24,061 bases of DNA from a virus. The DNA is taken from positions 465-24,525 of the IMG/VR virus record IMGVR_UViG_3300030116_005269, one strand, 5' to 3'. Shown here piece by piece: positions 1 through 17,459 of this stretch. Made by a program: the position numbers and the translations under genes. Under the pieces are notes generated by a model, which was given only the letters and a program-made list of their open reading frames with translations, was not told the origin of the DNA and ran no database searches. Positions within the stretch are counted from its first letter, which is position 1; each line of letters starts with the position of its first letter.

Positions 1-791
1 CTACCCATATATAAGTGCATAATGGTTGGCTCGTCAAATAAAGGAAAGACAAAGTTAAAACCTGCGTCAAATAAGTTTATAGTCCACGGCATCTCCTCGT
101 CCTCAAATATAACCCACTCAGGTAAATGTTCTACTAAGTTATACCTAGAAAAACTAAAATTACCGGAAAATCTTACATTAGGTACAATTTCGTCGCCATT
201 TGGATTTAGATCTGTCATAACATGAGTTGGTAATCTATCATGCCAATTAAATCTCATCATTTTTTGGTGTATATCATTTTCGTCGTCAACGACAAAATAT
301 TGATAGCGTAGATTAGTCAATTCTTTTCTAAAATGCGGGACTCTATTACCCTCGTCATCAAAATAATACAATCCTGCATAACCGTTAATAATTGGCTTAG
401 TTATTCCTCGATCGTCTGCTATTTTGTGCTTTTCTTTAATTTTAGTGTCCCAACCATTAGCAAACATCATGTGTCCGTCGATAAGCATTTTATACTCTTC
501 GTCTTGACACATAGCATACGATTTTATACGACCTTTAGCTAGACCAATAACATCTACAATATTATCTTCCGTAATATGCTCGTAATCTACTCTAAACTCA
601 TTATCAAATTGACTTATAAAATCTGTAAATGCGTATCGTGTATAATTTTTGGTGTATTGAAAATATATTCCAAACACTAAATTTTCAGGTTGATCAGCAC
701 TTAAAATACAATTTGATATAGTAGGACATACTTCGCTGTCATTAAAACAGGCGAAATACACATAAATCTTTTCAGCATTGTCCTCCTTCAC
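1..791 (-). CDS. GT60-type GlcNAc glycosyltransferase, 3' end beyond window
   Basis: About 263 residues are visible; the C terminus lies off the left edge. I read it in the frame opening at a GTG at 791. The N terminus (KIYVYFACFNDSEVCPTI, residues 8-25) followed by a PENLVFGIYFQY segment is the opening of the GlcNAc glycosyltransferase family (Pfam GT60-like, Skp1 GlcNAc-transferase relatives), which starts IxVSIasyRDpel...kP..l.fGv..Q. The family metal/nucleotide-sugar motif appears as LIDGHMMFANGWD (about 103-115), matching the usual iDSHmrF..gWD. Known relatives transfer GlcNAc to hydroxyproline or Ser/Thr. The start is uncertain: GGTGG lies 6 bases before the GTG, and the open frame continues upstream to a TAA inside the preceding gene without an ATG. 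It overlaps that zinc-ribbon gene by 20 bases. Family call is fairly confident; acceptor is unknown. Confidence 0.85.
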   Translation of the reverse strand, partial: MKEDNAEKIYVYFACFNDSEVCPTISNCILSADQPENLVFGIYFQYTKNYTRYAFTDFISQFDNEFRVDYEHITEDNIVDVIGLAKGRIKSYAMCQDEEYKMLIDGHMMFANGWDTKIKEKHKIADDRGITKPIINGYAGLYYFDDEGNRVPHFRKELTNLRYQYFVVDDENDIHQKMMRFNWHDRLPTHVMTDLNPNGDEIVPNVRFSGNFSFSRYNLVEHLPEWVIFEDEEMPWTINLFDAGFNFVFPLFDEPTIMHLYMG

Positions 792-909
792 AGCACGCCA
801 CCACCTTTTGATTAAATTGCGGACATTTGTAATTATAGCAATATAATCCCGCGTGTCTTTCCATTAATGTATGGTTGCATACAGGACACGGCGGGTCACT
901 CTTCTTCAT
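772..909 (-). CDS. Tiny zinc-ribbon-like protein, 45 aa
   Basis: A 45-residue protein with Cys at 8, 11, 24, 29, 39, 40 and 45. The CPVC knuckle followed by C-x4-C is the arrangement of a small zinc ribbon that could fold around one Zn ion. The ATG lies inside the end of the preceding 52-aa gene in another frame (14-base overlap), and its own 3' end overlaps the glycosyltransferase start, so the three look translationally coupled. Function is unknown; small Zn ribbons in phages are often nucleic-acid or protein adaptors. The CC...C tail beyond the ribbon is odd and might bind a second metal. Confidence 0.7.
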   Translation of the reverse strand: MKKSDPPCPVCNHTLMERHAGLYCYNYKCPQFNQKVVACCEGGQC

Positions 910-1054
910 CTTTTTTTTCCGGATTGTCTAAAAATATAACTTTTATAGACATACTACAATTACTCGGTGATTGATCACACATCCATTTATTATTTGCTAT
1001 GTGTTTAAGTGGCGCATTGCACTCAACACATCTATTGATTCTTTTTCTGCTCAT
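896..1054 (-). CDS. Tiny Cys4 zinc-finger-like protein, 52 aa
   Basis: Begins MSRKRINRCVECNAPL with a basic N terminus. Cys 9 and 12 form a CxxC knuckle, and Cys 26 and 33 could complete a Zn site. It ends in a charged EKKDEEE tail. The ATG is preceded by AGGAG at good spacing, within the end of the 47-aa membrane gene (23-base overlap). A second Cys-rich mini-protein follows immediately, so two zinc-ribbon candidates sit in tandem. No specific family recognised; the reading frame, ribosome site and Cys spacing support a real gene. Confidence 0.7.
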   Translation of the reverse strand: MSRKRINRCVECNAPLKHIANNKWMCDQSPSNCSMSIKVIFLDNPEKKDEEE

Positions 1055-1175
1055 CTAAAATCTCCTGTACTACTTCGCCGAAGTATTTAAAAAATCTTGT
1101 ACCCATAACAGCTAGCCATACTAAAAGACCAATAGAAGTTATAGATACTGTTAAAACTAAAATTATTTCTGTCAT
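1032..1175 (-). CDS. Small single-span membrane protein, 47 aa
   Basis: Begins MTEIILVLTVSITSIGLLVW: one hydrophobic N-terminal helix (about residues 3-25) followed by a charged tail containing KYFGEVVQEILDEQKKNQ. GGGAG lies 5 bases before the ATG. It is the last of a run of small membrane proteins downstream of the endolysin and r1t-like holin, so a role as holin, antiholin or other lysis accessory is plausible but inferred only from size, topology and position. Its 3' end overlaps the next gene by 23 bases. Confidence 0.65.
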   Translation of the reverse strand: MTEIILVLTVSITSIGLLVWLAVMGTRFFKYFGEVVQEILDEQKKNQ

Positions 1176-1198
1176 TAGAACTCCCTTCTGGGACTAAT

Positions 1199-1393
1199 TT
1201 ACATAACTGCTTGAACAAGAACTACTAAAGCGGAAACTGCTACTAGCCACCCGCTTAATTCAGCTCTTGATATTTTTGAATTTACCTTTTCGTGTAATTG
1301 ATCGATACGGTCGTTTATTCTTTCCTGCCCATCTAATACAAGCATAATCATTTCCTTTTGTGTAAGACCAACAGGATGCTTATGCTCACTCAT
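1199..1393 (-). CDS. XhlA-like membrane protein, possible holin accessory
   Basis: A 64-residue protein with a soluble N-terminal part containing a short heptad-like helix (DGQERINDRIDQLHEKVNSK, about 21-40) and a C-terminal hydrophobic helix (GWLVAVSALVVLVQAVM). This order, coiled coil then C-terminal anchor, is that of the hemolysin XhlA family of phage lysis accessory proteins. The ATG follows directly on the TAA of the upstream holin-like gene, with GAAGAG as ribosome site. Assignment rests on architecture and neighbourhood, not on a diagnostic motif. Confidence 0.6.
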   Translation of the reverse strand: MSEHKHPVGLTQKEMIMLVLDGQERINDRIDQLHEKVNSKISRAELSGWLVAVSALVVLVQAVM

Positions 1394-1651
1394 TTAAAAC
1401 TCTTCTTTTTTTCCGCCAAATGCTTCATTTATTTCATCAATAGTTAGTTTACCGTCATCGAGAAAACCACGAGCTAGTGCTTCTGTGACTTTGGCGACAC
1501 CCAAAGACCCGGCCAAAAGCACGGAGCTAAGGGTGTCAATACCAATAATTGATCCTGCTCCAATGATTGCTAGTCCGTTAGCAACGAATACAGCGACCAT
1601 ACGAGCCATGATCATTTTGATTTTTTGCAATTTGGATAAACCGCTAGGCAC
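1394..1651 (-). CDS. Small holin-like membrane protein, 85 aa
   Basis: GTG start preceded by GGAGGT at 6 bases, the strongest ribosome site in this stretch. The protein has a basic amphipathic N terminus (SKLQKIKMIMARM), then hydrophobic stretches around 17-32 and 40-55 separated by a short GSIIGIDTLS turn, and a charged C terminus (DDGKLTIDEINEAFGGKKEEF). Two short spans with a turn between resemble class II phage holins. A second, better holin candidate lies near 5170, so this could be an antiholin, a partner holin or an unrelated envelope protein. Confidence 0.6.
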   Translation of the reverse strand: MPSGLSKLQKIKMIMARMVAVFVANGLAIIGAGSIIGIDTLSSVLLAGSLGVAKVTEALARGFLDDGKLTIDEINEAFGGKKEEF

Positions 1652-1689: not shown

Positions 1690-1691
1690 AG

Positions 1692-1997: not shown

Positions 1998-4751
1998 CTA
2001 AAATCTCCTAATTAAAGCACCCGCTTGAGCGATAATTTGAGAAGCAATAATAACCGGTACTACTACTTCTTGTGCTTTTTCTTTTTGGTCGCTTGTCATG
2101 TCAGCGCCTATCGACCCCAGATCCATCTCTCTAATATCTATATTAACACTTGTCAGCTCACCTATTGGATTTTCCAAAAACGCCTCTACTTGTACCTCTG
2201 TGACAACATCTGCAAGTGTAAAATTTTCAACATCTTCGTTAGCAATAGCTCTTTCAACATATTCCTCAACAGCTGTAGCTATGTTTTCTTCTTCGGCTGC
2301 TTGTTGTGCAATAATTTCAACATCTTCCGCCGCTGTTTCTTCTTCAAAACCTAACACTTCACCAACGGCTTGTTTTTCTTCTTCGTCTAATTCAGCTACG
2401 GTTTCTACCTTTGTGACTTCTTTAACAACAGCTTTTACAACAGCTTTAGTTGTTGTATCAGCATTACCTAAGTTTTGTACGGAAACCTTAGCTACTTCTT
2501 TTACGACTTCTACTTTTTCTTCTGTATCAAGTTCGGCAACAACTTCCGCTACCGCCTCTTCTACCTGTTCTATGTACTCTTCTTGCTCTTCAACCGACAG
2601 ATCTTCTAACTCTTCTTCCTCGATAATTTCTATTTCATTATCCTCAAATACTTCGGTCAACTCCTCTACTTCTACTACTTCTGTAATAGCTTCCTCAGCA
2701 GCCTCTACTAAAACTTCTACTTCTTCTTCTGTGAGTTGTACCTCTTGATCTCCCTCCGTACCAAAAAATGAGTTATCCTCATCTTGTTCAGGTTTATCTG
2801 GGATAGTCGTTGTAGTAGTGGTTGTAGTCGTGGTCGTAGTCGTCGTAGTAGGAGGTACGACAATAACAATCTCTTCCAAGTTAATTTCTGGCGTTGTGTC
2901 AACTTTATAATCATCAAAATCCGTATTTTCTTTTATTTCAATTATAGTTTCTACTAACTCAATTATGTCTATTGGCTCTCCACCACCACCAAATTGTGAT
3001 TGGTCATCATCGTCTGTGTCTGTAGTTGTAGTAGGTAATACAATAGAGTCTTTAATTTCTTGCTCAATACGAGCCTTTTCTTCCGCTAATTCTCTAGCAA
3101 CTCTTTCCTCGTCTGTTTCGCTATAACCTGTTTCAGCTTCGTTTTTGTCACGCTGTCTTTGTAATTCTGCCAATCTATCTTGTTCTTCTTGATATTCCCT
3201 GTCAGCACGCTCTTGGTTAGTTTCATAATATCCTGTTTCGGCAAAGTTAGATTGTCTTTCTTGCTCTAAAGCCTCTTCAATAGCTTTTAGACGGGCTTGC
3301 TCTTCTTCATACTCTCTTTGCTCACGATCTCTACGCTCTTGATCTGTTTCGTAATAACCTGTTTCGTTAAAATTTTTATTTTTTTCGTTTTGTATAGCTT
3401 GTTGTCTTTTGCGTTCAGCCTCTTCTTCAGCTAAACGCTTTTGTTCAGCGTCGTAATCGTCTTGTGCTTTTTGATTAAATACTGTTAGCGTCGGCTCGGT
3501 AGAATAACCACTATAAACATTATAAGTAGAGCTATAAGCTCTAATTGAAAATTCGTAAGTGTTGTTAGTAATTGCACTATAAGGTATAGTGTACTCTGTA
3601 TTTGTTATGTTATAGACAACAGTTTCGTTTTCTGCGTCTATTCTGTAATATAAATCATAAGACTCAGCAATTCTAGTTCCTGTGTTAGGCATATCCCATA
3701 CAACTTTGACACCACTATTGTAAACATTTTCTACTGTAGGATTCATTGGTGGTCCAACAGTATTATCTACTGTATAAGTCGCCTCAACATCATTACACAT
3801 CCAATTAGTAGCACAAGTTGATAAACGATAGTAGTAAGTGCCGTTTAGAGTGTCATATTCTATTGCGTCATTGTTATCTACCCACGGTAAAGTAAATTCC
3901 GTAGTATCGGTATCTGTACTTCTATACACCTCAAACCAAGTGTTAGCGTTATAGTCTTGATCATAGGTTTCTGCTACTAATATTCTATACCCACCTATTG
4001 TGACACCGTTATCGGATGGTGTGTCCCAATCAACTGTTATACCACTTGAGCTTTCACTAATTGTATAACTAGATATTCCGTTAGGCGCAGGGGGTAAAGT
4101 TGTGGTAGTAGTGGTAGTAGTAGTCGTTGTGGTAGTTGTAGTTGTAGTTGTAGTTGTCGTAGTGCTAGAAGTCGTAGTTGTTGTAGCAAAACTACCTGTA
4201 GATATAGCATCGTCGTATTGAAAATACATATCGTCAAAGCTAGACCAATCGTGTATGTCAATAACAAACTTTGTTATAAATTTATCTGTGTTTTCTGCTA
4301 CTGCATTGTAATCAGTAAATGATTTATAAAATGTGTCATACATATCTGCACCATTATTTCCATAAGCCTGTGCAGACTTGTTTTCTGTTTCGGTTGTATC
4401 ATCCGAATAATAAAAAGTGACTGAGTATGCTTGATTGACTGCACCTACTTCAAAACCTACTTCATATACATCTATATCACTTGAAAATTCAAAAGTATAT
4501 TCGTGAGTACAACTACCATGAACTTGATGACATAAACTTAGAAATTGTCCCTGCGTTCCGTAATTACTACTTTCTGTCCAAACAGTATTATGTGAATTAC
4601 TATTTTCTCTTGTAATAGTAAAGTAGCCATCCCAATCTTGATCACTAAAACCCTCGTTGACGGTGACTTCTTGTGCTACTGCTAAGGGGAAAGGATATAT
4701 TAGTAAAGCAACAATTAATAAACGAACTAAGGTATTGAACTTACGAAGCAC
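1998..4751 (-). CDS. 917-aa secreted FN3/coiled-coil protein with poly-Thr linkers
   Basis: GTG start. Parts in order: Sec signal peptide (1-26, hydrophobic core LLIVALLIYPFPL, likely cleavage after AVA); an all-beta-looking domain (27-188) with a Cys pair in LCHQVHGSC; Thr linker of 5 plus 22 Thr (190-218) ending LPPAP; two fibronectin type III-like domains (about 222-328 and 333-426); a charged coiled coil (427-570) with three ETGYYET-type repeats; a second Thr linker (635-649) ending IP; a very acidic Glu/Val helical region (655-890); and a C-terminal hydrophobic/basic tail (VVVPVIIASQIIAQAGALIRRF region) that may anchor it. Signal peptides on long phage proteins are uncommon; the style is that of marine actinobacterial surface proteins, suggesting host origin. 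Role unknown: surface adhesin, superinfection blocker or envelope-remodelling factor are options. Confidence 0.8.
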   Translation of the reverse strand: MLRKFNTLVRLLIVALLIYPFPLAVAQEVTVNEGFSDQDWDGYFTITRENSNSHNTVWTESSNYGTQGQFLSLCHQVHGSCTHEYTFEFSSDIDVYEVGFEVGAVNQAYSVTFYYSDDTTETENKSAQAYGNNGADMYDTFYKSFTDYNAVAENTDKFITKFVIDIHDWSSFDDMYFQYDDAISTGSFATTTTTSSTTTTTTTTTTTTTTTTTTTTTTLPPAPNGISSYTISESSSGITVDWDTPSDNGVTIGGYRILVAETYDQDYNANTWFEVYRSTDTDTTEFTLPWVDNNDAIEYDTLNGTYYYRLSTCATNWMCNDVEATYTVDNTVGPPMNPTVENVYNSGVKVVWDMPNTGTRIAESYDLYYRIDAENETVVYNITNTEYTIPYSAITNNTYEFSIRAYSSTYNVYSGYSTEPTLTVFNQKAQDDYDAEQKRLAEEEAERKRQQAIQNEKNKNFNETGYYETDQERRDREQREYEEEQARLKAIEEALEQERQSNFAETGYYETNQERADREYQEEQDRLAELQRQRDKNEAETGYSETDEERVARELAEEKARIEQEIKDSIVLPTTTTDTDDDDQSQFGGGGEPIDIIELVETIIEIKENTDFDDYKVDTTPEINLEEIVIVVPPTTTTTTTTTTTTTTTIPDKPEQDEDNSFFGTEGDQEVQLTEEEVEVLVEAAEEAITEVVEVEELTEVFEDNEIEIIEEEELEDLSVEEQEEYIEQVEEAVAEVVAELDTEEKVEVVKEVAKVSVQNLGNADTTTKAVVKAVVKEVTKVETVAELDEEEKQAVGEVLGFEEETAAEDVEIIAQQAAEEENIATAVEEYVERAIANEDVENFTLADVVTEVQVEAFLENPIGELTSVNIDIREMDLGSIGADMTSDQKEKAQEVVVPVIIASQIIAQAGALIRRF
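2805..2849 (-). repeat. Poly-Thr linker coding tract 2
   Basis: Encodes about 15 consecutive Thr preceded by VVPP and followed by IPDKPE, with mixed ACN codons. It separates the middle part of the 917-aa protein from its acidic helical C-terminal region. Confidence 0.8.
3096..3365 (-). repeat. Three ETGYYET-type repeats within coiled coil
   Basis: Three copies of a motif close to ETGYYETDQERxDRE begin at residues 463, 505 and 540 of the 917-aa protein. Spacings of 42 and 35 residues are both multiples of seven, so each copy sits in the same heptad register of the coiled coil. The third copy has diverged (ETGYSETDEERVARE). Confidence 0.75.
4098..4184 (-). repeat. Poly-Thr linker coding tract 1
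   Basis: Encodes five Thr, two Ser and 22 Thr in the 917-aa protein. Codons are a mix of ACA, ACT, ACC and ACG rather than one repeated triplet, so the tract looks maintained at protein level, as an extended and possibly O-glycosylated spacer, rather than as a simple slippage array. Confidence 0.85.
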
Positions 4752-7703: not shown

Positions 7704-7705
7704 AA

Positions 7706-8166: not shown

Positions 8167-8430
8167 CTATGGTACTATAAAAATACATTCTCCCGGGCAT
8201 TCCTCTGCTGCTTCGGTCACTAAATCCTCTTGACCTTTAGGTACTCGTGCTAACCCCTCTGCGCCCTGATCGTTGTTGTGTATTTCGCTAAAAATTTTTA
8301 ATTCACCAAAATTACCAACTACTTCTTGAACATAAGCTAAACCGTCATTTTGCATAACAAAAACATCAGGTGCTATTTCAGCGCAAAGTCCGTCACCTGT
8401 GCAAAGATCTTGATCTATCCATACTTTCAT
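8167..8430 (-). CDS. Actinobacterial-type [3Fe-4S] ferredoxin
   Basis: 87 residues, close to family length. The opening MKVWIDQDLCTGDGLCAEIA with PDVF, the AEGLARVP segment and the ending AAEECPGECIFIVP are, in my memory, very like small ferredoxins of Actinobacteria that serve cytochrome P450s and other oxygenases. Cluster residues visible are C10, C16 and C78 followed by Pro; D13 stands where a fourth Cys would be in a [4Fe-4S] type, so a [3Fe-4S] cluster, or a [4Fe-4S] with Asp ligand, is expected. C82 is extra but usual in this subgroup. It overlaps the preceding DUF6065-like gene by 4 bases (ATGA), so it is co-translated with the modification cassette. No reductase or P450 is seen here; it may plug into host partners. 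Confidence 0.9.
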   Translation of the reverse strand: MKVWIDQDLCTGDGLCAEIAPDVFVMQNDGLAYVQEVVGNFGELKIFSEIHNNDQGAEGLARVPKGQEDLVTEAAEECPGECIFIVP

Positions 8431-9173
8431 TGAAACCTATTCTTGTTAATCTGTCTGTACCCACCTGTCATTTTACTTCTTAATTTAAAACTTTCGTCCC
8501 TTATAGCGTGATCGTGTTTTTCATCCCACTTACTAACTACAAGATTCTTTTTTTCTCTTTTAAAAGGTATTACATGTAAAAACGGCATACCTCTTTTAAT
8601 TAATCTTTCACCCTCACTATGCCATACGCTAGGAAAATTTACTTGATGGAAAGTGTCTGTTTCTACAACACCCGGAAACAAAGTAAAATCTTTATTAGGG
8701 TGTAGTTGCGGTTGTAAAAATAGTGTTGACCAACCCGGTGGTGTCCAAAAAAACCACGGGCTAGTAAACTTTACAGCTCTACGATAATCATTTCTTTCAA
8801 AAGGATATGTGCTAAATTGTTGCTCGTCATGAAACTCTAAAGTACTTCCTATGCCATTGTCGTCACTAAAGTTAGTTTCAAAATGGAAAGTTTCACCTAC
8901 TCTTTGTATTAACATATCACACCAAAAAGGAATAATATAACCTTCTGTGAAGTAATCAACAACAGCAGGACACTTCTTTATTGTATGCAAATTCAAATCT
9001 TTTATAAGAGAACTCATAATAGGAAATGGTTTGTGATTGTCTTGTTGAAGATCTAAAGGTAGTTTTTTAAACCACTCCGGTATCATTTGACTTGCAGGTA
9101 CAGGTGGTGCTATGTCGGGTAATGCAGGTATAATACTTGCAAACTCTATATTATTTTTTTTTACCCACCTCAT
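8427..9173 (-). CDS. DUF6065-like protein B
   Basis: 248 residues. It shares with the protein at 10478-11296 a core of KFTSPWFFWTPPGWSTLFLQ (about 137-156), then VVETDTFHQVNFP, WHSEGE and RGMPFLHVIPFKRE. The conserved VETDxxHQ and HxxGE pieces could supply metal or substrate ligands in a jelly-roll-like fold, but this is inference. From memory the TPPGWS...VETD...IPF pattern belongs to DUF6065, found in bacteria and marine phages and uncharacterised. It lies between a short oxygenase-like gene (ATGA overlap) and the ferredoxin (ATGA overlap), so a joint role in one modification reaction is plausible. Confidence 0.65.
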   Translation of the reverse strand: MRWVKKNNIEFASIIPALPDIAPPVPASQMIPEWFKKLPLDLQQDNHKPFPIMSSLIKDLNLHTIKKCPAVVDYFTEGYIIPFWCDMLIQRVGETFHFETNFSDDNGIGSTLEFHDEQQFSTYPFERNDYRRAVKFTSPWFFWTPPGWSTLFLQPQLHPNKDFTLFPGVVETDTFHQVNFPSVWHSEGERLIKRGMPFLHVIPFKREKKNLVVSKWDEKHDHAIRDESFKLRSKMTGGYRQINKNRFQ

Positions 9174-9676
9174 TTTTCACCTGTAAAAAACCAATGTTCC
9201 GGCTCAACAAAATGAAAAAACGCAGCCCCTACACCATTGTTATCTACATTTGGAAAAGGCGGTCGCCAATGTTCTTGTTCTTCACCGTAAAATGCTAAGG
9301 CTTGATTTGGTTTCAAAATATATTCTCGACCTTCTACAATTAAAGGCCAATCCGTATCACTATACAAATGTAAATCTATTGTATATGTACAAGCATTGTT
9401 GTCTTTGTGTTTTACTAATTCAGCAAGCTCGCCCTCATAATGACAGGCTAAAGCATAGCTAGGTAATAGGGTAGGGGATTGGAACACATCTCTAGCAACC
9501 GCTACTGATCTGTTAAAGTACGGCATAATCGCACGCCATAAATCACTACTACACCCATACCTACCAAAAAATTCGTTGTATTCAAAGTTTTTGTAATTTC
9601 TTTTTACTAGTCCAACAAGACGATTAAAAATATCTTGTGGGAATAGTTCTTCAATTAGTATTTCTTTTCTTTCCAT
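9170..9676 (-). CDS. Short 2-oxoglutarate/Fe(II) oxygenase-like protein (HKD type) 2
   Basis: 168 residues. H90-K-D92 (in LVKHKDNNACTYTIDLHLYS) and H136 (in GEEQEHWRPPFP) form the HxD...H iron triad of a double-stranded beta-helix oxygenase, with GREYILKPNQALAFYG between. The C-terminal strand is VGAAFFHFVEPEHWFF. It is a clear paralogue of the protein at 12010-12567: HKD, ending strands and the 46-residue spacing between the two His are the same. A typical 2-oxoglutarate-binding Arg or Lys is not obvious after H136 (R138 is near). The substrate is unknown. It overlaps the preceding gene by 22 bases and the next by 4. Confidence 0.7.
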   Translation of the reverse strand: MERKEILIEELFPQDIFNRLVGLVKRNYKNFEYNEFFGRYGCSSDLWRAIMPYFNRSVAVARDVFQSPTLLPSYALACHYEGELAELVKHKDNNACTYTIDLHLYSDTDWPLIVEGREYILKPNQALAFYGEEQEHWRPPFPNVDNNGVGAAFFHFVEPEHWFFTGEK

Positions 9677-10485
9677 AATTTCTGTTTCTTTGGTACTAGT
9701 CTTCTTGGTCTTCTACTCAAAGCTTCGGGATATAATTGATTAGTATCTCTACGATTAACTGAGGATTGACTAATCAAATTCCATTGTTTACTAAACTCCT
9801 CGTTCCACGGTACATATTCTAGTTTTACCGGTTTAGAGAATAATAAATTAAACATAATTACATCGTGATTTAATAAACACTCTTCACGATCAAGATCAAC
9901 CCACTCAAAAGCCCAAGATAAACCTCTAGACCAAGAGTGTATAGGCATAAATCCGGGTATTGTACTAATAGGTAAATCTTTACCCACATTTCTATCACTA
10001 GGTAGTACATCCATCCATACTTCCGGATCGTCACAAAATAACATAACCGGCATAGATATTTGCATAGTAGGTACTCCCGGTCTAGCCCAACCTTCTTTTT
10101 CTTCAACAATAAGCTGATTAAAAGGTCCGTGGTGTTTTACATTACCGTAAAAATGTGCGTTAAAATCAAAACCACCGTATCTATCTACATCGTCAGCCAA
10201 TTCATTTTTTCTCATTTTGATTTTTACATAACTATATGGAAAGTTAACTTCATATAATCTATTTCTCATAAATTGTGTAGATACACAACCATTAGGGGCT
10301 TTTACAAACTTTTTAGGTAGTTCATAATTAACTGAGGGTAAAGCATTACTTTCCTCATTTTCTAATTGACCCCATTGTAAATTAGGTACGGGTACTGTGT
10401 ATGCAACCCTAGGTGCGCTTCTGCTTATATCTTTCATAGGCTTTGACCATATATCAGTAATTCTAGGTATTGGACATTTACTCAT
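9655..10485 (-). CDS. Divergent DUF6065-like protein C
   Basis: 276 residues, GGGGG 6 bases before the ATG. No signature as clear as in the neighbours, but the order of blocks is similar: ISMPVMLFCDDPEVWMDVLP where they have the PPGWS block, IPGFMPIHSWSRGLSWAFEW where they have PGVVETD, and IMFNLLFSKPVKLEYVPWNE where they have TPLIQVIPYKR. I therefore place it as a distant third member. It has lost the TPPGWS and VETDxxHQ residues, so it may be a non-catalytic partner or have another substrate. The basic C terminus (RRPRRLVPKKQKLWKEKKY) could bind nucleic acid or a membrane. Overlaps at both ends indicate co-translation. Confidence 0.5.
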   Translation of the reverse strand: MSKCPIPRITDIWSKPMKDISRSAPRVAYTVPVPNLQWGQLENEESNALPSVNYELPKKFVKAPNGCVSTQFMRNRLYEVNFPYSYVKIKMRKNELADDVDRYGGFDFNAHFYGNVKHHGPFNQLIVEEKEGWARPGVPTMQISMPVMLFCDDPEVWMDVLPSDRNVGKDLPISTIPGFMPIHSWSRGLSWAFEWVDLDREECLLNHDVIMFNLLFSKPVKLEYVPWNEEFSKQWNLISQSSVNRRDTNQLYPEALSRRPRRLVPKKQKLWKEKKY

Positions 10486-11296
10486 CTATAACCCCCTCTT
10501 CTTTCCATATCTTTTTATTTTGTTGCGTAAGCCAACGGTAAAAACCGTTTTGTCTTGTTCTTTCCGCAGACCTGCTTTTTGAGTAATAAAGTTTGTCTAA
10601 ATCATCCATATCTCTACTTTCGTAGTCTTTTAAATCAAAACCACTTCTCTTGTAGGGTATTACTTGTATTAGAGGCGTACCCTGTCTAAATGTTTTTTCA
10701 CCAACTCCGTGATATATAAAAGGTATATTCATTTGATGATAAGAGTCAGTTTCTACAAGACTAGGCATAATTTCTATTTCCCAAATACGATGATACCACG
10801 GCTGAGTTATGATAACTGACCAACCCGGTGGTGTCACTATATCCCACGGATTTGTAAATTTTAATGCTGTGTTAAAACTTGTAGGTTGAAAAGGCATATT
10901 ACCTATGGACGCGGGATCGTGATATGTAATAGTTTCATTGTAAGCGTGCTTGTTGTACCAATTAAATCCTGTTTGCTTATTATGACTAATTTTAAGATCA
11001 AGCCATAAAGGTATAATATATCCCGCCGTCATCATATCTTTTACAGTAGGACATTTTTTTAAAGAATTATCTTTGTAAGGAACTGTATTCCAACTATCGT
11101 CGTCTTCTCTTAACTCTGTCCACTCTCTTTGTAAATGTTTGTACCAAGCAGGTATAAACTCTTTAGCAGGACGAGGTGGAGCTAGATCAACATATTCAGG
11201 ATCACCTGTAAGGAATAGGATTTTATCGTCGCCAACTTTATGTTTTTTGACTTCTAAAAATCTACTATATTCTTTTCGTTCCCACCATTTAGCCAT
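10478..11296 (-). CDS. DUF6065-like protein A
   Basis: 272 residues. Core blocks shared with the 248-aa protein are: KKCPTVKDMMTAGYIIPLWLD, LKFTNPWDIVTPPGWSVII, PSLVETDSYHQMNIPF, YHGVGE and GTPLIQVIPYKRS. Conserved His in DSYHQ and YHGVGE, with Asp/Glu in VETD, could form a metal or substrate site. The N-terminal APPRPAKEFIPAWYK region also matches the APPVPASQMIPEWFK region of the paralogue. Its ATG overlaps the methyltransferase stop (TAATG). Cellular role unknown; in marine phages such proteins tend, in my recollection, to sit beside 2-oxoglutarate oxygenases, as here. Confidence 0.65.
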   Translation of the reverse strand: MAKWWERKEYSRFLEVKKHKVGDDKILFLTGDPEYVDLAPPRPAKEFIPAWYKHLQREWTELREDDDSWNTVPYKDNSLKKCPTVKDMMTAGYIIPLWLDLKISHNKQTGFNWYNKHAYNETITYHDPASIGNMPFQPTSFNTALKFTNPWDIVTPPGWSVIITQPWYHRIWEIEIMPSLVETDSYHQMNIPFIYHGVGEKTFRQGTPLIQVIPYKRSGFDLKDYESRDMDDLDKLYYSKSRSAERTRQNGFYRWLTQQNKKIWKEEGVIDE

Positions 11297-12009
11297 TATT
11301 CCATCAACACCATTGCTTGTTCTACTATTTTTAAATTGTCGTCTGGAAAATCACCTGTATATTGGTTTCTTAAAGATATAGCATTTGTATCTTTATCCCA
11401 ATGGATTATTTTATAAGTTGTAAAAGGTTGTGCTTTCAAATCGTCAATTTTGTCGTCTATATTATCCATAAGATCGGGTGTCCAACTAATAATAACTTTC
11501 ATATCGGGATTGTCTGCAATAGTATCTACACAACCGTCAAGAACATCTAGTTCGCTACCATTTGTAGTTATGACTAACAGATCAAGATCTGTTAAATCTA
11601 AGCTATCTACTGTAATAACCTCAACTGCTTGTTCACCCTCACCAAAATCAACATCTAGTTTTGCACCAGATTTGTTATTGTCAAAGTAGTACATTGTACC
11701 GCTACGACTTGTGCTTGCACAAGCTTTGTTTATATTTGTAGCGCTAGAACAATTTGTTTCTAAATCTGCAAATCTTGAAGTTATTGGCTCAACATTTATT
11801 ACTTCTTTACCATTTGAAGTAAGCACTTTACTTGCTACTCCTACTCCTGCACCAACAAATAATGCTTTGTCAATATTTGTAATGTTTTCATTTACATAAA
11901 ATTCTAAAGAAGGATCAAGTGTAAGCCTGTTGTTCATTAATAGTTGTTCAGCCCTATCACTTGCGTCGTATTCTATTGATTCCCCCACACTTAAATCTAT
12001 TTCTACCAT
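11296..12009 (-). CDS. FkbM-type SAM-dependent methyltransferase
   Basis: 237 residues. ALFVGAGVGVASKVLTSNG (49-67) is the glycine-rich SAM motif I, VINVEPITSRFADLETN gives the acidic residue of strand 2 (E74), and VEVITVDSLDLTDLDLLVITTNGSELDVLDG (129-159 region) matches the FkbM pattern TLDsl....DlLKIDvEGaElevL.G. The Asp of the usual KIDVEG is replaced by Thr (ITTNGSE), so acceptor or metal handling may differ. FkbM enzymes O-methylate sugars and polyketides. Placement between the oxygenases and the DUF6065-like genes suggests it methylates the product of the cassette, perhaps a hydroxyl group or sugar. Confidence 0.7.
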   Translation of the reverse strand: MVEIDLSVGESIEYDASDRAEQLLMNNRLTLDPSLEFYVNENITNIDKALFVGAGVGVASKVLTSNGKEVINVEPITSRFADLETNCSSATNINKACASTSRSGTMYYFDNNKSGAKLDVDFGEGEQAVEVITVDSLDLTDLDLLVITTNGSELDVLDGCVDTIADNPDMKVIISWTPDLMDNIDDKIDDLKAQPFTTYKIIHWDKDTNAISLRNQYTGDFPDDNLKIVEQAMVLME

Positions 12010-12567
12010 TTAGTACCAATCTTTCTTAATTTCTGTATAGTGACGACCGGACGGAAATACCGGCTCACCACCACTAAATTCACCTAAAACAAAGTGGTAG
12101 TTGTCTGGTCGTGCATAATTAAAGTATAGCGCAACAGTCACTCCTCCCGGATTTTGTAATCGACCGTGATCTGTTTGTTGTCCTTCATAAGCTAAAGCCT
12201 CTTCGTCTGCTAATACTATTTCTCTACCATTTACATTCATGTTCCAACCGCTCTCGCTGTAGTAGTTGTACATAATTGTAAACTCAACAGGATCTGTATC
12301 TTTATGCACAGGATAGTTTGCATTAGTTTCATACCAATTTAAAGTAGCAAAGGTAGGAAGTAAATTGGGAACATCAAAGACTTCTCTTGCTTTGTCAATA
12401 CTAAATATATGGTACATATCGAGTTCGGGACAAGTCTTTTTCATCATACCTGTTTCGTGTCTTTCCCAAGTTTGATCGTCATAGTAAGGCGACTCATTGT
12501 CTAACCAATGTCGCATTTCTTCTACTTGATTTCCCTTAAATAAATCTGTGATGATTATTGCATCCAT
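12010..12567 (-). CDS. Short 2-oxoglutarate/Fe(II) oxygenase-like protein (HKD type) 1
   Basis: 185 residues from the ATG at 12567, chosen because AGAGGA lies 5 bases before it; ATGs at 12573 (ATGA overlap with the upstream stop) and 12630 are alternatives, the last less likely because it only extends into the neighbour. H88-K-D90 (in YPVHKDTDPVEFTIMYNYY) and H134 (in GQQTDHGRLQNPGGVTVALYF) give an HxD...H iron triad with NVNGREIVLADEEALAYEG between them. It is paralogous to the 168-aa protein near 9170. R136 may take the 2-oxoglutarate contact. The substrate is unknown; the small size suggests a minimal oxygenase or cupin-type enzyme. Confidence 0.7.
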   Translation of the reverse strand: MDAIIITDLFKGNQVEEMRHWLDNESPYYDDQTWERHETGMMKKTCPELDMYHIFSIDKAREVFDVPNLLPTFATLNWYETNANYPVHKDTDPVEFTIMYNYYSESGWNMNVNGREIVLADEEALAYEGQQTDHGRLQNPGGVTVALYFNYARPDNYHFVLGEFSGGEPVFPSGRHYTEIKKDWY

Positions 12568-12569
12568 TT

Positions 12570-13244
12570 TCATCCTCTTGGTAAATAAAAATCTGGTAAT
12601 CCATCTGTGTCTATTTGATGACCTAACCATGTGACTATTGCATACTTAGTACCACTAATTATAGGCATAGCCCTATGGGAATAAGCGTAATTGCTAGGAA
12701 ACAAAACTAAAGCAGGTTTATCGGGTTTAACATTTTCGTCAAAGTGTATGAAATATGTACCGCCACCCTCATACTCAGTAGGATTTAAAAGTATTAGCGC
12801 ACTTAAATATCTAGGCATGTGTGGTGCATAATCACAATGAGCTTTATATTCTTGACCGCCCTGATAACGCAATAAAGTATATCCCTCATCAAACATAATT
12901 GGAAACTCATACTTTTTAGTGTATTCATTTACATACTCACTTAACTTTTGTGTGAGTAAGTCTTGTAAGTTAGCTATATCTCTAAAATACTTGTCATTAC
13001 CATTTTTAACGGACTCTCTGTATAGTCTTGATTCTTTAGGTAAAAAGTAATGTTCAGTAATACCAAAAGTCTTATTTGACCTAATATCTCCGCCTTTGTG
13101 TCCTTTACCAACGGACGCATCTTTAAAACCTAATTCAAATGTTTCGTCTTGATCAATATCTTCACATATTTTTATAATTGTTTTAGCTTGATCTTCTGTA
13201 ATGAAATCCTCATAGATTTCAACACAACCCATAATTTTTTTCAC
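12570..13244 (-). CDS. Prolyl-4-hydroxylase-like 2OG/Fe(II) oxygenase
   Basis: 224 residues. H136-C-D138 (in EYKAHCDYAPHMPRYLSALI), H190 (in SNYAYSHRAMPI) and K200 (in SGTKYAIVTWLGHQ) are the iron triad and 2-oxoglutarate-binding basic residue, in the spacing of prolyl 4-hydroxylase superfamily members; EYEGGGTYF is the usual GGxxxF strand. It should hydroxylate a peptide or small-molecule substrate using O2 and 2-oxoglutarate, releasing succinate and CO2. It overlaps the preceding oxygenase by 4 bases (ATGA). Related genes are frequent near tail genes in marine phages; the target here is unproven. Confidence 0.85.
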   Translation of the reverse strand: MKKIMGCVEIYEDFITEDQAKTIIKICEDIDQDETFELGFKDASVGKGHKGGDIRSNKTFGITEHYFLPKESRLYRESVKNGNDKYFRDIANLQDLLTQKLSEYVNEYTKKYEFPIMFDEGYTLLRYQGGQEYKAHCDYAPHMPRYLSALILLNPTEYEGGGTYFIHFDENVKPDKPALVLFPSNYAYSHRAMPIISGTKYAIVTWLGHQIDTDGLPDFYLPRG

Positions 13245-13957
13245 GAAAACTCCCTCATCTTGATTTGGTCTATTGGATTACCATTATTATAGCTATCCAT
13301 ATCAAAATTACTACTAAGTGAAACTAAAAATGCAGACTTACGACCGTTCAACAAAGGCGTTGTTGCATGTGAATAAACAAAAGAACTAGGCATGATTACA
13401 ACCGATCCGGCAGGTGGTTTGTATGGATCAGCCTCCGGAAAGTATCTAAATTTCAAACTACCACCCATAAAGTTGTCATTGAGATAAGTTAATATAGTTA
13501 TTCGACGCATATACGGTGCAATGTAATATTGATTTGTTTTAGGGTTTCTAACTGAGTGATTGTCACTATGATATGTCATGTGTTTTGGCGGACTATAAGT
13601 TATGTATTGGTACTTTTCTAACCAATTAACTTCTTTTTCTACATCTGGGTACAATTCAAAATATTGTGCTGCTTTGTTTAAAGCGTTTGCTTGTACTTGT
13701 TTTAAAAATTGATAATGTGTTTTTTTTGTAAATTGAGCTTCTGGATCAAATCTTATAGGTCCGTTATCGTTATATAAAGATTTTGCTGCTTCGTCTGTTT
13801 TAGTAGATTCTAAAGTTTGTTGGGCTTTCCAATTATCTACATCTTCGTCCATAGATTCTATTATGCCGTCTGGTACTTCTAAGCAATTTTCCCAAGCGAC
13901 AACACCTCTAATAACTTCTTTAGGTGTACCACTTACCCATAAATTATTCTTCTTCAT
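13241..13957 (-). CDS. 2OG/Fe(II) oxygenase, prolyl-hydroxylase-like
   Basis: 238 residues. The triad is H130-S-D132 (in HMTYHSDNHSVRNP) and H197 (in SSFVYSHATTPLLNGRKSAFLVSL), with R206 or K207 in the 2-oxoglutarate position. RRITILTYLNDNFMGGSLKF is the core strand pair seen in prolyl hydroxylases, and PPAGSVVIMPSS the following turn. The iron and co-substrate sites look complete, so it should be active. It begins inside the end of the preceding 156-aa gene (14-base overlap) and leads the modification cassette, just after the tail-fibre genes, which makes fibre proteins likely substrates by location. Confidence 0.85.
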   Translation of the reverse strand: MKKNNLWVSGTPKEVIRGVVAWENCLEVPDGIIESMDEDVDNWKAQQTLESTKTDEAAKSLYNDNGPIRFDPEAQFTKKTHYQFLKQVQANALNKAAQYFELYPDVEKEVNWLEKYQYITYSPPKHMTYHSDNHSVRNPKTNQYYIAPYMRRITILTYLNDNFMGGSLKFRYFPEADPYKPPAGSVVIMPSSFVYSHATTPLLNGRKSAFLVSLSSNFDMDSYNNGNPIDQIKMREFS

Positions 13958-14414
13958 CTGCTTTTTCGTATATAGCGATTTCTTTTTTATCTACTTCTTT
14001 TTTGTCTTTATAAAAAATTATGTCATACCATCCGGGTTTAAGAGCAATATGTTCACTATAAAAATATTTTTTATGGTTGTCGTATTGTAGTAAATGAGTA
14101 TCTATTTTATTTTGTTGCTCACTAGGATTGTCTAAATTTTTTGACCAGACCTCCATTGAGTATTGAGGCATATTGTCTTTGTCAATAAATTCGTCAATAT
14201 ATATGTATTGTACAAATTCTGTTGAGGGTGCATTAACAGGAACATGAGCTTTTCTATATTCAGGTATTTCAACAAGTTGTGCGACACTAGGGTCTTTTAC
14301 AAAGTCTTCTATGTTTGGTGATAACCCTGTATGCACTTCGGCAACTACTTGTTCCCATTCTTGTTTGTAATCATCAATAGATTCACCTTCGGGTATGTAG
14401 TATATTAATCTCAC
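13944..14414 (-). CDS. Hypothetical protein, 156 aa
   Basis: MRLIYYIPEGESIDDYKQEW leads a mixed alpha/beta, acidic protein. The C-terminal half (YSEHIALKPGWYDIIFYKDKKEVDKKEIAIYE) looks like an Ig-like or carbohydrate-binding-like beta sandwich edge. No family recognised. It lies between a tail-associated gene and the first oxygenase, so it could be a fibre accessory or assembly chaperone; this is position-based only. Confidence 0.6.
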   Translation of the reverse strand: MRLIYYIPEGESIDDYKQEWEQVVAEVHTGLSPNIEDFVKDPSVAQLVEIPEYRKAHVPVNAPSTEFVQYIYIDEFIDKDNMPQYSMEVWSKNLDNPSEQQNKIDTHLLQYDNHKKYFYSEHIALKPGWYDIIFYKDKKEVDKKEIAIYEKADEEE

Positions 14415-14431: not shown

Positions 14432-15355
14432 TTAGGCTGTGAGTGTTGCTCGAATATCTAGTTGTGCCTTTAAGTAATCGATTGTTGCACCAAAGCTAAC
14501 ATCTTTTGTAGCTTTATAAGCATCAACATCGGCCAAGAACGCAGTTTCGTCAAATGCGTCTATATCTTCACCAAGTTTGTAAAGACAGTTAGCAACTGCT
14601 TTCTCACAGACTTGTAGGGCATCAGCTTTTTCCGTTGCTAAGGCATCGGCGCTAATTGATAGATCCATATCTTCTCCTATATTGTAAGTGTTTCCTAGAC
14701 AGTATAGCATTGAATATTCACGAATATCTTTTATTCCCGGACTACCCTCGACAGGCCAAACCCAATCGTCAGGTATTTCGACAAAATATGCGTGAGCTTT
14801 ACTGTAAAATATTTTTATAAACGAATATGACCCCTGATCAGTTCCGTCATCTCCGTCATCTGTTGATATTGTATCAAGTTCTTTATCAAAATTGTCTATT
14901 GTAGTACAAGTAATATCGGTAGCTAAAACATCTGTATAGGTATTATCTGCATAAACATAAGGGCTATCATTTTTTATATAAAAATTTACATTAGGATTTA
15001 CATTTGTGTCAATATCCCAAACATAACCTACTTCATATTTATATTCGTTTAACAAATCGTCTGTCAATTTAAGTGGTGTATCATATTCACCGTTATAATC
15101 TGTTATAAAATCTTTGCGTCTTATATATAAAGAAAACCTTTTTGCATTGTTTAACTCAACATCAACATAACCAAGTGTTCCGTCAACTACAAAATTTAAT
15201 TTTTTTCTTGGACCATAAGGATATACATTATCGATTAAATCACTAGGAAATAAATTAGGTGCGTCTTGTGGATATAAAGTGCCGGGAAAATAAAATAAAT
15301 CCCAATTACTATAATCTTGATCTTCTCGTTTGTAATAAACTCTAACTGTCGCCAT
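14432..15355 (-). CDS. Tail-associated protein with CBM41-like opening and helical C terminus
   Basis: 307 residues. The opening TVRVYYKREDQDYSNWDLFY resembles the start of pullulanase-type carbohydrate-binding modules (CBM41: vHYhRpdgdYdgWgLw), and the first 200 residues are beta-rich and aromatic. A stretch of TDDGDDGTDQG separates blocks, and the last 80 residues are helical (DALATEKADALQVCEKAVAN onward), like a fibre trimerisation or chaperone segment. Sugar binding would suit a receptor-binding protein, but the CBM41 resemblance is short and from memory. Confidence 0.55.
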   Translation of the reverse strand: MATVRVYYKREDQDYSNWDLFYFPGTLYPQDAPNLFPSDLIDNVYPYGPRKKLNFVVDGTLGYVDVELNNAKRFSLYIRRKDFITDYNGEYDTPLKLTDDLLNEYKYEVGYVWDIDTNVNPNVNFYIKNDSPYVYADNTYTDVLATDITCTTIDNFDKELDTISTDDGDDGTDQGSYSFIKIFYSKAHAYFVEIPDDWVWPVEGSPGIKDIREYSMLYCLGNTYNIGEDMDLSISADALATEKADALQVCEKAVANCLYKLGEDIDAFDETAFLADVDAYKATKDVSFGATIDYLKAQLDIRATLTA

Positions 15356-15467: not shown

Positions 15468-15469
15468 AA

Positions 15470-16129
15470 TTAGACCTTAAATGTTTTTACATTACCGTCA
15501 TTGTGTCCTGTGACATCTGTGGCTAGTCCTGTAAGTGGTATGTCTTGACTAACTATAAAAATTGCACCACCACCGGTAGTAGATTCTCCTGTAGCATATA
15601 CAGTTCCATAACCACTAATATTTCTTGCACATAAAACTACAATTCCACCACCTGCGTTTGTTGTATCTCCTGATCCGCCAACTACAGCTTCGGGTGTTGT
15701 TTGACCACCGTGTACAATAACTCCGCTTATAGCTAAGTCTGGGTGGTTAAAATATTCTATACCTTCGGTAGGCGCTGTAGCACTTGTACCATTTCCCGCA
15801 CCACCAATACTGTTAGTTGCATTACCTGTAGTACCGCCTTTTAATGTTCCGTCTGTACTAGCTGCGCCTTTTCTACCTAATGAACAAGTAGCTTGTTCGC
15901 TTGGTGTACTAGATAACATTAAAGAGTTTCTAACAAAAACTCTATATCCTGCTGTGTTTAAATGTATATCGTCATTTATAGTTAAGTTGTTGTAGTGCAT
16001 ATCACGAGTCAATGTTGTATTAGATGATATTGTGACATTACCGTCATTACCAGAGCCATAAATACTGTCTGGTATCACATCAAAAGTTTCAAAGTCGCTT
16101 GGTACTACACCTATTTCTTTTATAGCCAT
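15470..16129 (-). CDS. Glycine-rich tail-fibre protein, 219 aa
   Basis: Start chosen at the ATG beginning MAIKEIGVVPSDFETFD, 6 bases after GGAG; an ATG 11 codons earlier lies inside the upstream gene and is unlikely. Residues 25-75 (YGSGNDGNVTISSNTTLTRD, then HYNNLTINDDIHLNTAGYRVFV) match the next gene upstream in the same order, as does KGGTTGNATNSIGGAGNG. The rest is a Gly-rich beta structure with NAGGGIVVLCARNISGYGTV. It is a shorter paralogue of the 442-aa protein and lacks its Tyr/Asn/His insert. Likely a receptor-binding tip or fibre component. Confidence 0.75.
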   Translation of the reverse strand: MAIKEIGVVPSDFETFDVIPDSIYGSGNDGNVTISSNTTLTRDMHYNNLTINDDIHLNTAGYRVFVRNSLMLSSTPSEQATCSLGRKGAASTDGTLKGGTTGNATNSIGGAGNGTSATAPTEGIEYFNHPDLAISGVIVHGGQTTPEAVVGGSGDTTNAGGGIVVLCARNISGYGTVYATGESTTGGGAIFIVSQDIPLTGLATDVTGHNDGNVKTFKV

Positions 16130-16130
16130 T

Positions 16131-17459
16131 TTACGCTCCCGGATCTGTGTCGCTAGCAGCAATATTGTAAACGGTTAATACAGTTCCGGCACCTGCTGTT
16201 CCTGTACCACTCGTACCTGCGGCTGCTGCTAATGTCAAACCGCTAGGTAAAGGTTTTGTTCCTGAAATTAAAATTACTGTTCCGCCCCCCGCGTTATACC
16301 CGTCTGATGCTGTTCCGCCTGCGCCACCTGCACCGCCGGGGTGATAAACTGTTGGGTTTGTGGTAGAAGGATTTGTACCGTAGTTGGTAGGGTTGCTTCC
16401 ATAGTTAGTTGGATTTGACCCGTAGTTTGCGCCATAATTAGTATTGTTAGACCCATAGTTTGTTGTAGGGTTATTACTTCCATAGTTTGTGTATGGATGT
16501 GAGTGGTTATAGTGATAATGATAATATCCGGATTGATAGTTATTAATTGTTGGACCGCCGTGCCAATGATAATGTGTGTGAGGATTTGATCCGCTGTAAG
16601 AGTATGGGTTTCCGGGTGATGTGTAGGAATAGTTGTTCCCCGGATAGCTATATCCGTATGAATAATTATTTCCTGAATAAGAATAGTTATTTCCCGGATG
16701 TGTATTTGTATTACCCGGAACTGTGTTTCCCGGTGTACTAGCGTCTGGTGCAGGAGCGCCTGTTGTTCCATCCGTTCCAGCAGAAGCGTCATCACCGTCG
16801 GCTCTAACTGTACCGTCACCTACTATTGTCTTAGCAATAACTAAAACAACTCCACCGCCTACCGCACCTGTACCCGCTGTTGCTGCATTACCGGTTGCAC
16901 CTTTACCACCCGGCGCACCAACTGTTTGATAGTCACTCCAATTTGAGTCACCACCGTCTGCACCTGCTGAGGCGTTTGCTGTAATCGATCCGTCACCCCC
17001 ACCAGATCCACCTCCTATAAACTTATAAGAGCCAGACGCAGGATCAAACTTTGACCCCTGTATAGCTACTGTTAAATTAAAAAATTCGTTTTCCCCACTA
17101 AAAAATTTGTTTGCGTTATGTGCTGAGTCTGATTGTGATCCTGATTTACCGCCTAATGTATCAGTTGCTGCTGTACCTTTAGCAAAGCCACCCTTAAGAG
17201 TTCCTACAGTAGTTTTGTTTGTAAATCTACCTATTCTTGAAGTGCTATTTGTAAATGTAAGTGTTCCTTTGACAAAGATACGATAGCCGTTGCTATCTAA
17301 TGTACAGTTAGCATTTATTGTTAAATTGTTGTAGTACATATCTCTTGATAGTGTGGTATTTGAGGTTATTGTGACATTACCATCTTGTCCAAAACCATAT
17401 ACCTCCTCACCACCAAGTCTGTCTAAAAAGACCGGCTCGGGTATTTCTATGGAAGGCAT
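16131..17459 (-). CDS. Glycine-rich tail-tip protein with PGN/TNYGSN repeat insert
   Basis: 442 residues. A fibre-like N terminus (DGNVTITSNTTLSRDMYYNN) and Gly-rich core (GGGSGGGDGSITANASAG, VGAPGGKGATGNAATAGTGA, GGGVVLVIAKTIVGDGTV) are shared with the 219-aa paralogue downstream. Between about 241 and 372 lies an insert absent from the paralogue: five PGN motifs (243, 248, 255, 273, 282) alternating with NNYSY, a His/Tyr/Trp stretch (NPHTHYHWHGGP; YYHYHYNHSHP), and tandem TNYGSN-type units (324-361). Gly-rich tips of this kind determine receptor choice in phages such as S16; the insert may be the receptor-contact or metal-binding tip, and its X-Pro-Gly sites are possible targets of the prolyl-hydroxylase-like enzymes downstream. 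Confidence 0.78.
   Translation of the reverse strand: MPSIEIPEPVFLDRLGGEEVYGFGQDGNVTITSNTTLSRDMYYNNLTINANCTLDSNGYRIFVKGTLTFTNSTSRIGRFTNKTTVGTLKGGFAKGTAATDTLGGKSGSQSDSAHNANKFFSGENEFFNLTVAIQGSKFDPASGSYKFIGGGSGGGDGSITANASAGADGGDSNWSDYQTVGAPGGKGATGNAATAGTGAVGGGVVLVIAKTIVGDGTVRADGDDASAGTDGTTGAPAPDASTPGNTVPGNTNTHPGNNYSYSGNNYSYGYSYPGNNYSYTSPGNPYSYSGSNPHTHYHWHGGPTINNYQSGYYHYHYNHSHPYTNYGSNNPTTNYGSNNTNYGANYGSNPTNYGSNPTNYGTNPSTTNPTVYHPGGAGGAGGTASDGYNAGGGTVILISGTKPLPSGLTLAAAAGTSGTGTAGAGTVLTVYNIAASDTDPGA
16374..16742 (-). repeat. PGN / NNYSY / TNYGSN tandem repeats in tail protein
   Basis: The DNA encodes degenerate short repeats: (x)PGN(x)n with NNYSY units, a His-rich middle, and TNYGSN units near 16374-16490. 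Neighbouring units differ in synonymous codons, yet long stretches are similar enough for slippage or recombination to change copy number. The repeat also creates a long open frame in another phase on the same strand (16274-16819), which I treat as a shadow. Confidence 0.75.

Follow-up and report, generated by a model that had tools for sequence, protein, structure and literature searches.

Downstream of its tail genes, the virus record IMGVR_UViG_3300030116_005269 carries a gene cassette in which two fibre-type genes are followed by two genes for prolyl-hydroxylase-like 2-oxoglutarate- and Fe(II)-dependent (2OG-Fe(II)) oxygenases and, farther along, by a gene for a glycosyltransferase of family GT60. 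The region was analyzed as a window of 24,061 nt (bases 465–24525 of the 85,160-base record), to which unlabelled positions refer. Across viral contigs, this fibre pair, as well as fibres with other repeats that mix proline and aromatic residues, is usually accompanied by oxygenase genes of the same kind, here called P4H-like (after prolyl 4-hydroxylase, P4H), suggesting that the oxygenases may act on the fibres themselves.

Gene layout of the cassette

All genes considered lie on the minus strand, with coordinates and reading frames as given in a preliminary description of the window and verified here. They are listed in gene order downstream of the tail genes and further fibre-type genes; phosphoesterase-like and lysis-type genes lie between the ferredoxin and the Thr-run protein, and small membrane-type proteins are encoded between the latter and GT60.

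16131–17459, minus strand: large fibre/adhesin (442 aa), putatively the first of the two paired fibres; it has PGNNYSY and YGSNPT repeats, five HxH steps and homologues in related contigs
15470–16162, minus strand: putative second fibre of the pair, sharing an N-terminal TLTRDMxYNNLTI module by alignment
14432–15355, minus strand: structural-type protein with weak similarity to the pullulanase-associated domain PUD (PF03714, E = 4.4e-5, 24.7 bits against a cut-off of 25), collinear in relatives
13944–14414, minus strand: small conserved cassette protein, recognized from the gene order of relatives, with no family matched in a Pfam search
13241–13957, minus strand: prolyl-hydroxylase-like 2OG-Fe(II) oxygenase a (P4H a; PF13640, E = 1.5e-7)
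12570–13244, minus strand: prolyl-hydroxylase-like 2OG-Fe(II) oxygenase b (P4H b; PF13640, E = 1.9e-13; phrog_61, E = 1.5e-31)
12010–12630, minus strand: short HKD protein 1, putative oxygenase by its HxD...H motif
11296–12009, minus strand: FkbM-type methyltransferase (PF05050, E = 2e-7)
10478–11296, minus strand: DUF6065-like protein b (phrog_7084, E = 5e-53), with a putative dUTPase-like fold by analogy with its paralogue
9655–10485, minus strand: highly conserved protein with no Pfam match (75% mean column identity over 10 sequences; no link to DUF6065 by hhalign)
9170–9676, minus strand: short HKD protein 2, putative oxygenase by its HxD...H motif (phrog_2954, E = 1.6e-14)
8427–9173, minus strand: DUF6065-like protein a, with a dUTPase-like beta-clip fold predicted from an AlphaFold2 model
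8167–8430, minus strand: ferredoxin of the single-cluster 4Fe-4S type (PF13459, E = 1.5e-18)
1998–4751, minus strand: Thr-run protein of 917 aa with a signal-peptide-like N terminus by inspection, a candidate alternative GT60 substrate
3–791, minus strand: GT60 glycosyltransferase, incomplete at the window edge (PF11397, E = 8.8e-12), with a second GT60 gene beyond the edge

The preliminary description had named the glycosyltransferase, the two prolyl-hydroxylase-like oxygenases and a methyltransferase, and profile searches bore out all of these families, the methyltransferase being of the FkbM type. Absent from it were both DUF6065-like proteins, the partner fibre (15470–16162) and the ferredoxin (8167–8430), which is part of the conserved cassette.

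Fibre genes and P4H-like oxygenases

For the P4H-like family profile, the best-ranking solved relatives are named prolyl 4-hydroxylases (E = 1.5e-11). In an alignment of 24 sequences the HxD...H residues H136, D138 and H190 are invariant, and a lysine, K200, is present in at least 90% at H190+10, a spacing that we take to mark the 2OG-binding residue of P4H. Both PF13640 assignments are sound, and hydroxylation of proline itself is suggested by the association with proline-aromatic repeats described below. The two short HKD proteins had likewise been called oxygenases: H, D and H are indeed invariant in 21/21 sequences, but a profile search found no solved relative and hhalign gave no link between the HKD and P4H profiles (1.1%), so that the oxygenase label derives from the motif.

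A fibre role for the 442-aa protein is suggested by its position, its Gly-rich and repetitive composition and its five HxH steps, which are present in all 12 large-fibre rows of the alignment. These steps (HTHYHWH ... HYHYNHSH) presumably resemble the metal-binding HxH needle of T4 gp37. The five Pro-Gly-Asn (PGN) motifs reported earlier are present and exceed the 0.49 expected by shuffling, a count reached in 1 of 5000 shuffles; Pro-Gly (PG) occurs 8 times against 4.4 expected (262 of 5000 shuffles). The proposal that PGN is the site of modification did not hold, since 13 homologues contain 5, 5, 5, 5, 6, 5, 6, 1, 2, 1, 1, 5 and 6 copies with the cassette unchanged and, outside the window's clade, a frame with at least three PGN was found in just 1 of 43 loci with P4H-like genes. 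PGN was accordingly rejected as a conserved target.

The gene order itself is well conserved. A scan with P4H a identified 14 viral contigs that keep the order from fibre pair to ferredoxin as far as each contig extends, with P4H a identity falling as low as 61%. When the second fibre was used as the query, 80 loci were identified, of which 12 end too early to judge and 68 have at least 2.5 kb of downstream sequence. The fibre pair is present in 58 of these 68 loci, and all 58 carry both P4H-like and DUF6065-like genes, with GT60 in 18/58. The remaining 10 have a single fibre frame: in four, the locus starts no more than 1.4 kb before the small fibre, truncating the large one, and both P4H-like and DUF6065-like genes are present; the other six are distant single-domain homologues with neither type of gene (0/6). 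The co-occurrence of oxygenases and fibres that the preliminary description proposed to survey was found for the pair, but GT60 accompanies a minority of pairs and PGN is variable. Two fibre-protein queries, run with the low-complexity filter on, matched no isolate phage with these fibres.

Among tandem repeats within 5 kb of such islands (up to 161 loci), 21 loci mix proline with Phe or Tyr (FFPP, PPGFF, PFGFT, PFFPPYF, NYGSNPT and others), and all 21, several of them near-duplicates, carry P4H-like genes. In one of them (L173), a fibre with 12 PPGFF units lies 58 bp upstream of two P4H-like genes, followed by two DUF6065-like genes and four further P4H-like genes. The product of this fibre gene (L173 3349–4710) also has an intein-like C-terminal stretch (PF14890, E = 0.0012, below cut-off).

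The FFPP idea arose post hoc and was therefore put to the test in a DNA scan for FFPPFFPP, counted over in-frame loci of at least 5 kb in two batches. P4H-like genes are present in 37/52 loci of the first batch and 25/28 of the further batch (62/80 pooled), in contrast to 4/56 and 3/34 (7/90) for a collagen-like GPTGPTG control (p = 7e-22 for FFPP versus GPT) and 5/58 and 0/25 (5/83) for a poly-Thr control. Counted by protein-word clusters, the proportions are 25/32, 7/86 and 5/81, respectively. The scan re-found some contigs that had prompted the idea; after removal of FFPP loci sharing a 40-mer with these contigs, P4H-like genes are present in 39/49 loci, and after removal of whole clusters so touched, in 14/20 clusters (p = 2.7e-8 versus GPT). 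Where a P4H-like gene is present, no more than 1 kb separates it from the FFPP frame in 33/37 and 17/25 loci of the two batches; at least three such genes are found in 29/52 and 18/28 loci, and one locus reaches 11 P4H-like frames. DUF6065-like genes occur in 34/52 and 19/28 FFPP loci.

The fibre–oxygenase pairing is thus seen in two fibre architectures and with several types of repeat, an association that supports the earlier suggestion of a phage hydroxylating its own fibre. The reading that we prefer, at a probability of roughly 0.6, is a fibre-coupled protein-modification island in which P4H-like enzymes act on fibre proline repeats and GT60 is a separable writer. The genes, their families, the conserved gene order and the co-occurrence are observed; in this model, whose fibre function, catalysis, acceptor residues and sugar we infer, the pair at 15470–17459 would be the substrate; the two prolyl-hydroxylase-like oxygenases would hydroxylate prolines in its PGNNYSY and YGSNPT repeats, and related P4H arrays would do the same in other fibres, which have FFPP, PPGFF or PFGFT repeats. 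GT60 would add an alpha-linked N-acetylhexosamine, probably N-acetylglucosamine (GlcNAc), with Thr/Ser or hydroxyproline as the acceptor, either in this fibre or in a different protein of the phage, and the DUF6065-like proteins, with their predicted dUTPase-like fold, would be constant partners. The generalization that many tailed phages, mostly uncultured, write hydroxyproline, and some of them O-GlcNAc, on the proline-aromatic repeats of their own receptor-binding fibres by means of dedicated islands of P4H arrays, DUF6065 and GT60, with DUF6065 as a new dUTPase-fold partner, is more tentative, and we would put it somewhat short of an even bet.

Several observations weigh against the island interpretation. 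The AlphaFold model of the PGN protein is poor and uninformative (predicted local distance difference test score, pLDDT, 43), and 36 of the 58 pair loci belong to the window's own clade (at least 66% identity), others being near-duplicates; 22 are more distant. Two homologous fibres (L014 and L016) have 1 PGN and 16 prolines, compared with 5 and 25 in the window, and their loci retain the P4H-like genes. PG enrichment of homologous fibres is modest (median z 1.1 with P4H-like genes versus 0.2 without, p = 0.006; n = 29 and 12, six of the 12 being truncated so that P4H may lie beyond their ends), and many relatives with P4H-like genes lack any. PG richness over all frames near islands shows no link to P4H-like genes (1/51 loci with versus 4/106 without), because most of the repeats are FFPP-like and not PG. 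No P4H match was found in 18/80 FFPP loci, or 7/32 clusters. Finally, the GT60 gene of the window lies approximately 11.8 kb from the nearest P4H-like gene and 15 kb from the fibre pair.

GT60 and its candidate acceptors

The GT60 gene is incomplete in the window because of the window edge and a scaffold gap; it scores 45.6 bits against a curated cut-off of 21, and three other phage members reach 59–69 bits with PF11397. In a near-identical contig (L003) the gene is whole (333 aa), with a second GT60 gene (277 aa) behind it. D100 and H102 (DxH in place of DxD) are invariant in an alignment of 22 sequences, and an EE motif is conserved. DxH is given as the motif of GT27 and GT60, and GT60 is grouped with GT27 for Ser/Thr (PMC7185993). 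The GT60 enzyme of Trypanosoma cruzi forms GlcNAc-alpha-Thr in mucin-like molecules (PMC9472816), and the GT60 enzyme Gnt1 acts in the Skp1 pathway (PMC6939170). Since GT60 enzymes have been described for both Thr and Skp1, the acceptor is not fixed by family.

One alternative is that GT60 is a mucin-type O-GlcNAc transferase acting on the 917-aa Thr-run protein, independently of the oxygenases. The Thr-run gene lies 1.2 kb from GT60 on the same strand, and the T. cruzi enzyme offers a precedent. In bacteria, a Thr/Pro repeat protein adjoins GT60 in 6/16 loci, some of which look related (L113, L116, L117, L118 at 472 bp, L119 and L120). These neighbours, from Thauera, Azospirillum, Azoarcus, Thiobacillus and Burkholderiales, are of adhesin type, with TTEPP, EPPVTT or PTTTT repeats. 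Thr therefore remains a possible GT60 acceptor, in line with the T. cruzi enzyme, and mucin-type O-glycosylation by GT60 beside Thr-repeat adhesins is possible in bacteria. A formal adjacency test over 22 bacterial loci gave a repeat protein at 4/42 adjacent versus 2/153 other positions, with p = 0.02 taking in the loci that prompted the idea. Against this, 0/6 further bacterial loci have such a neighbour, one being a 3.5-kb contig; the six were taken from the stronger matches in sets of 399 and 385 genomes, nine genomes with weaker matches being left out. Moreover, just 2/83 viral poly-Thr loci carry GT60, and poly-Thr was rejected as a general mark of GT60 in viruses; in the L013–L017 clade, GT60 lies beside the cassette, directly behind the ferredoxin gene on the opposite strand. 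We therefore consider this alternative credible in principle but unlikely. A further candidate, Thr within the repeats of GT60-carrying loci (PPPPT, PEPT, PFGFT and QGTTGT), was set aside as post hoc and with exceptions (GYSY and L081); the GT60 matches in PFGFT loci are weak (E = 1e-6 to 1e-8).

A stricter, Skp1-like scheme, close to the hydroxylation-then-GlcNAc pathway of the preliminary description, holds that P4H makes hydroxyproline at PGN and that GT60 adds GlcNAc to that hydroxyproline. In addition to the Gnt1 precedent, it draws on eight relatives in which one gene run contains the fibre, GT60 10–40 bp behind it, two DUF6065-like genes and then P4H-like genes. The link of GT60 had been described as one by content and not by adjacency, which agrees with the distances in the window but not with these eight relatives; for the window's fibre family, the GT60 link is supported by adjacency. 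Large-fibre repeats in the pair survey include FTPGT and YSPGS (L170 and L159) as well as VPGN (L180), and one fibre (L644) has 26 PG and 9 PGN in a locus with two GT60 and two P4H-like genes. Besides the variability of PGN, however, the two enzymes are often found apart. A viral scan with the GT60 alignment gave 77 loci in 29 clusters at 60% identity, with P4H-like genes in the locus in 6/29 clusters and further along the contig in at least three more (L041, L042 and L049). Among 20 whole GT60 records, picked mostly for having no P4H in the locus and possibly fragments, PF13640 was found in 4, of which two belong to the clade of the window, while in the other two the match is remote from GT60 in the record. 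Conversely, GT60 is present in 1/52 and 2/28 FFPP loci (3/80), and PF11397 in 3/20 whole FFPP records, which may also be fragments. GT60 and P4H together are thus true of the window's phage and no general rule; neither one joint pathway nor an obligate Skp1-like order is supported by these counts, and the strict scheme appears improbable.

Only one isolate phage, Xanthomonas phage XacN1 (L104), was matched by one GT60 query, and a second GT60 query matched none. The XacN1 gene is annotated as a glycosyltransferase family protein and adjoins a carbamoyl transferase gene.

DUF6065-like partners and relation to known systems

DUF6065 is abundant in viral contigs (at least 592 confirmed stretches) and is the commonest neighbour family of viral GT60, in 17/29 clusters by BLAST and 20/29 by hidden Markov model within the locus. 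It abuts GT60 in 10 clusters versus 2.3 expected (within-locus null, maximum 8 in 2000 draws). In a sample of the best 80 of the at least 592 stretches, P4H-like genes are present in 37 loci and GT60 in 21 (six weak): both in 12, GT60 only in 9, P4H only in 25 and neither in 34 (p = 0.31). With no significant link in these loci, P4H and GT60 are separable, though both occur in DUF6065 islands; this again speaks against the strict Skp1-like scheme. DUF6065 was rejected as a GT60-specific partner, being found with GT60 in just 21/80 loci compared with 37/80 for P4H. The phage record has three DUF6065-like copies, two in the window (8427–9173 and 10478–11296) and one at L021 11615–12379.

An AlphaFold2 model of DUF6065 a from 60 sequences has a pLDDT of 84.8. 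In Foldseek its first six matches are five dUTPases and one dCTP deaminase (E = 5e-4 to 9e-4; TM-scores approximately 0.3 by query and 0.46–0.63 by target), and VIA-align places it with dUTPase 3ecy_A (Z 10.1, root-mean-square deviation 2.7, 118 residues aligned), further matches having Z of 8.6–9.6. By sequence, the best solved match of the DUF6065 profile is dUTPase 3c3i at an E of 0.46 only, and in this weak match GIVDTD and GTPxxQ align with the dUTPase GVIDSD and GDRIAQ; 1/60 members matches PF00692, at E = 0.11. A dUTPase-like beta-clip fold is therefore predicted from the model. A role as a further oxygenase is unlikely, since the fold matches dUTPases and HxD...H is not conserved; no cupin or oxygenase is among the 50 fold matches listed, and one may still exist beyond them. 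In haloviruses, DUF6065 homologues adjoin ribonucleotide reductase (HRTV-5).

Instead of modifying phage proteins, the oxygenases and transferases could alter small molecules or the envelope of the host, or have a part in nitrogen or redox metabolism. The FkbM methyltransferase and the ferredoxin within the cassette would fit such a role, and 2OG-Fe(II) oxygenases of phages have been proposed to act in DNA repair (PMC9146016) or listed under nitrogen metabolism (PMC5628999). A role in host metabolism would not lead one to expect so close an association with a single kind of fibre repeat, however, which makes this explanation highly doubtful. DNA hypermodification by a C5 methylase, a TET-like oxygenase and a glycosyltransferase, for which a C5 DNA methylase, a SAM (S-adenosylmethionine) synthetase and the predicted dUTPase-like fold of DUF6065 could be cited, is far-fetched given that the oxygenases are P4H-like and located with fibres and that a PF12851 (Tet_JBP) profile search of the record gave no match, though the control likewise matched in no genome. 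In the phage genome, the C5 DNA methylase gene (L022 16909–18516) overlaps the SAM synthetase gene (18503–19591). The host is probably an actinobacterium, as suggested by a WhiB gene in another part of the record (E = 3.4e-23).

Marine phages commonly encode 2OG-Fe(II) oxygenases, for which, besides the roles proposed above, an EGLN3-like fold has been noted (PMC12774648). Pairing with one fibre repeat type narrows the question of their substrate to one gene pair. If the fibre-coupled island reading is correct, phages would modify host-recognition proteins by collagen-like chemistry, with a bearing on fibre stability and host recognition; if the generalization to many tailed phages also holds, a large part of phage-encoded 2OG-Fe(II) oxygenases would gain a function. 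The analysis also singles out DUF6065 as an abundant viral protein to solve. A literature search returned no mention of DUF6065, nor of GT60 together with glycosyltransferase and phage, and, judged by the titles and beginnings of abstracts listed, named no link to fibre hydroxylation.

Among catalogued families, the DUF6065-like proteins correspond to PF19541 and phrog_7084: 43/60 aligned members match PF19541, but the two window proteins fall below its curated cut-off, and the dUTPase-like fold is a prediction of the present analysis. Cyanophage Syn9 similarly has an array of 2OG-Fe(II) oxygenases and one DUF6065 homologue near tail-fibre assembly genes, but no short tandem repeats and no GT60 match in the 12.6-kb stretch examined; its DUF6065 homologue lies beside two genes annotated as tryptophan halogenase, together with the oxygenase array. 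Enzymes of the TcOGNT1 type, which make GlcNAc-alpha-Thr on mucins in T. cruzi, share with the window enzyme the GT60 family, the DxH motif and Thr-rich candidate substrates, but the window enzyme is phage-encoded. The Skp1/Gnt1 pathway of Dictyostelium and Toxoplasma likewise has a GT60 enzyme and a P4H-like oxygenase encoded by the same genome, here even in a single gene run in the eight relatives; in contrast, its substrate is Skp1, here presumably replaced by a repeat fibre, and in many phages the two enzymes are found separately.

In collagen and extensin, prolyl hydroxylation is followed by glycosylation. The phage islands resemble these systems in their repeats, which combine proline with aromatic or small residues, and in having prolyl 4-hydroxylases as the nearest solved relatives of their oxygenases, and differ from them in that FFPP and PFGFT repeats are not collagen, that a single locus may hold up to 11 P4H-like frames, and that DUF6065 is a partner.

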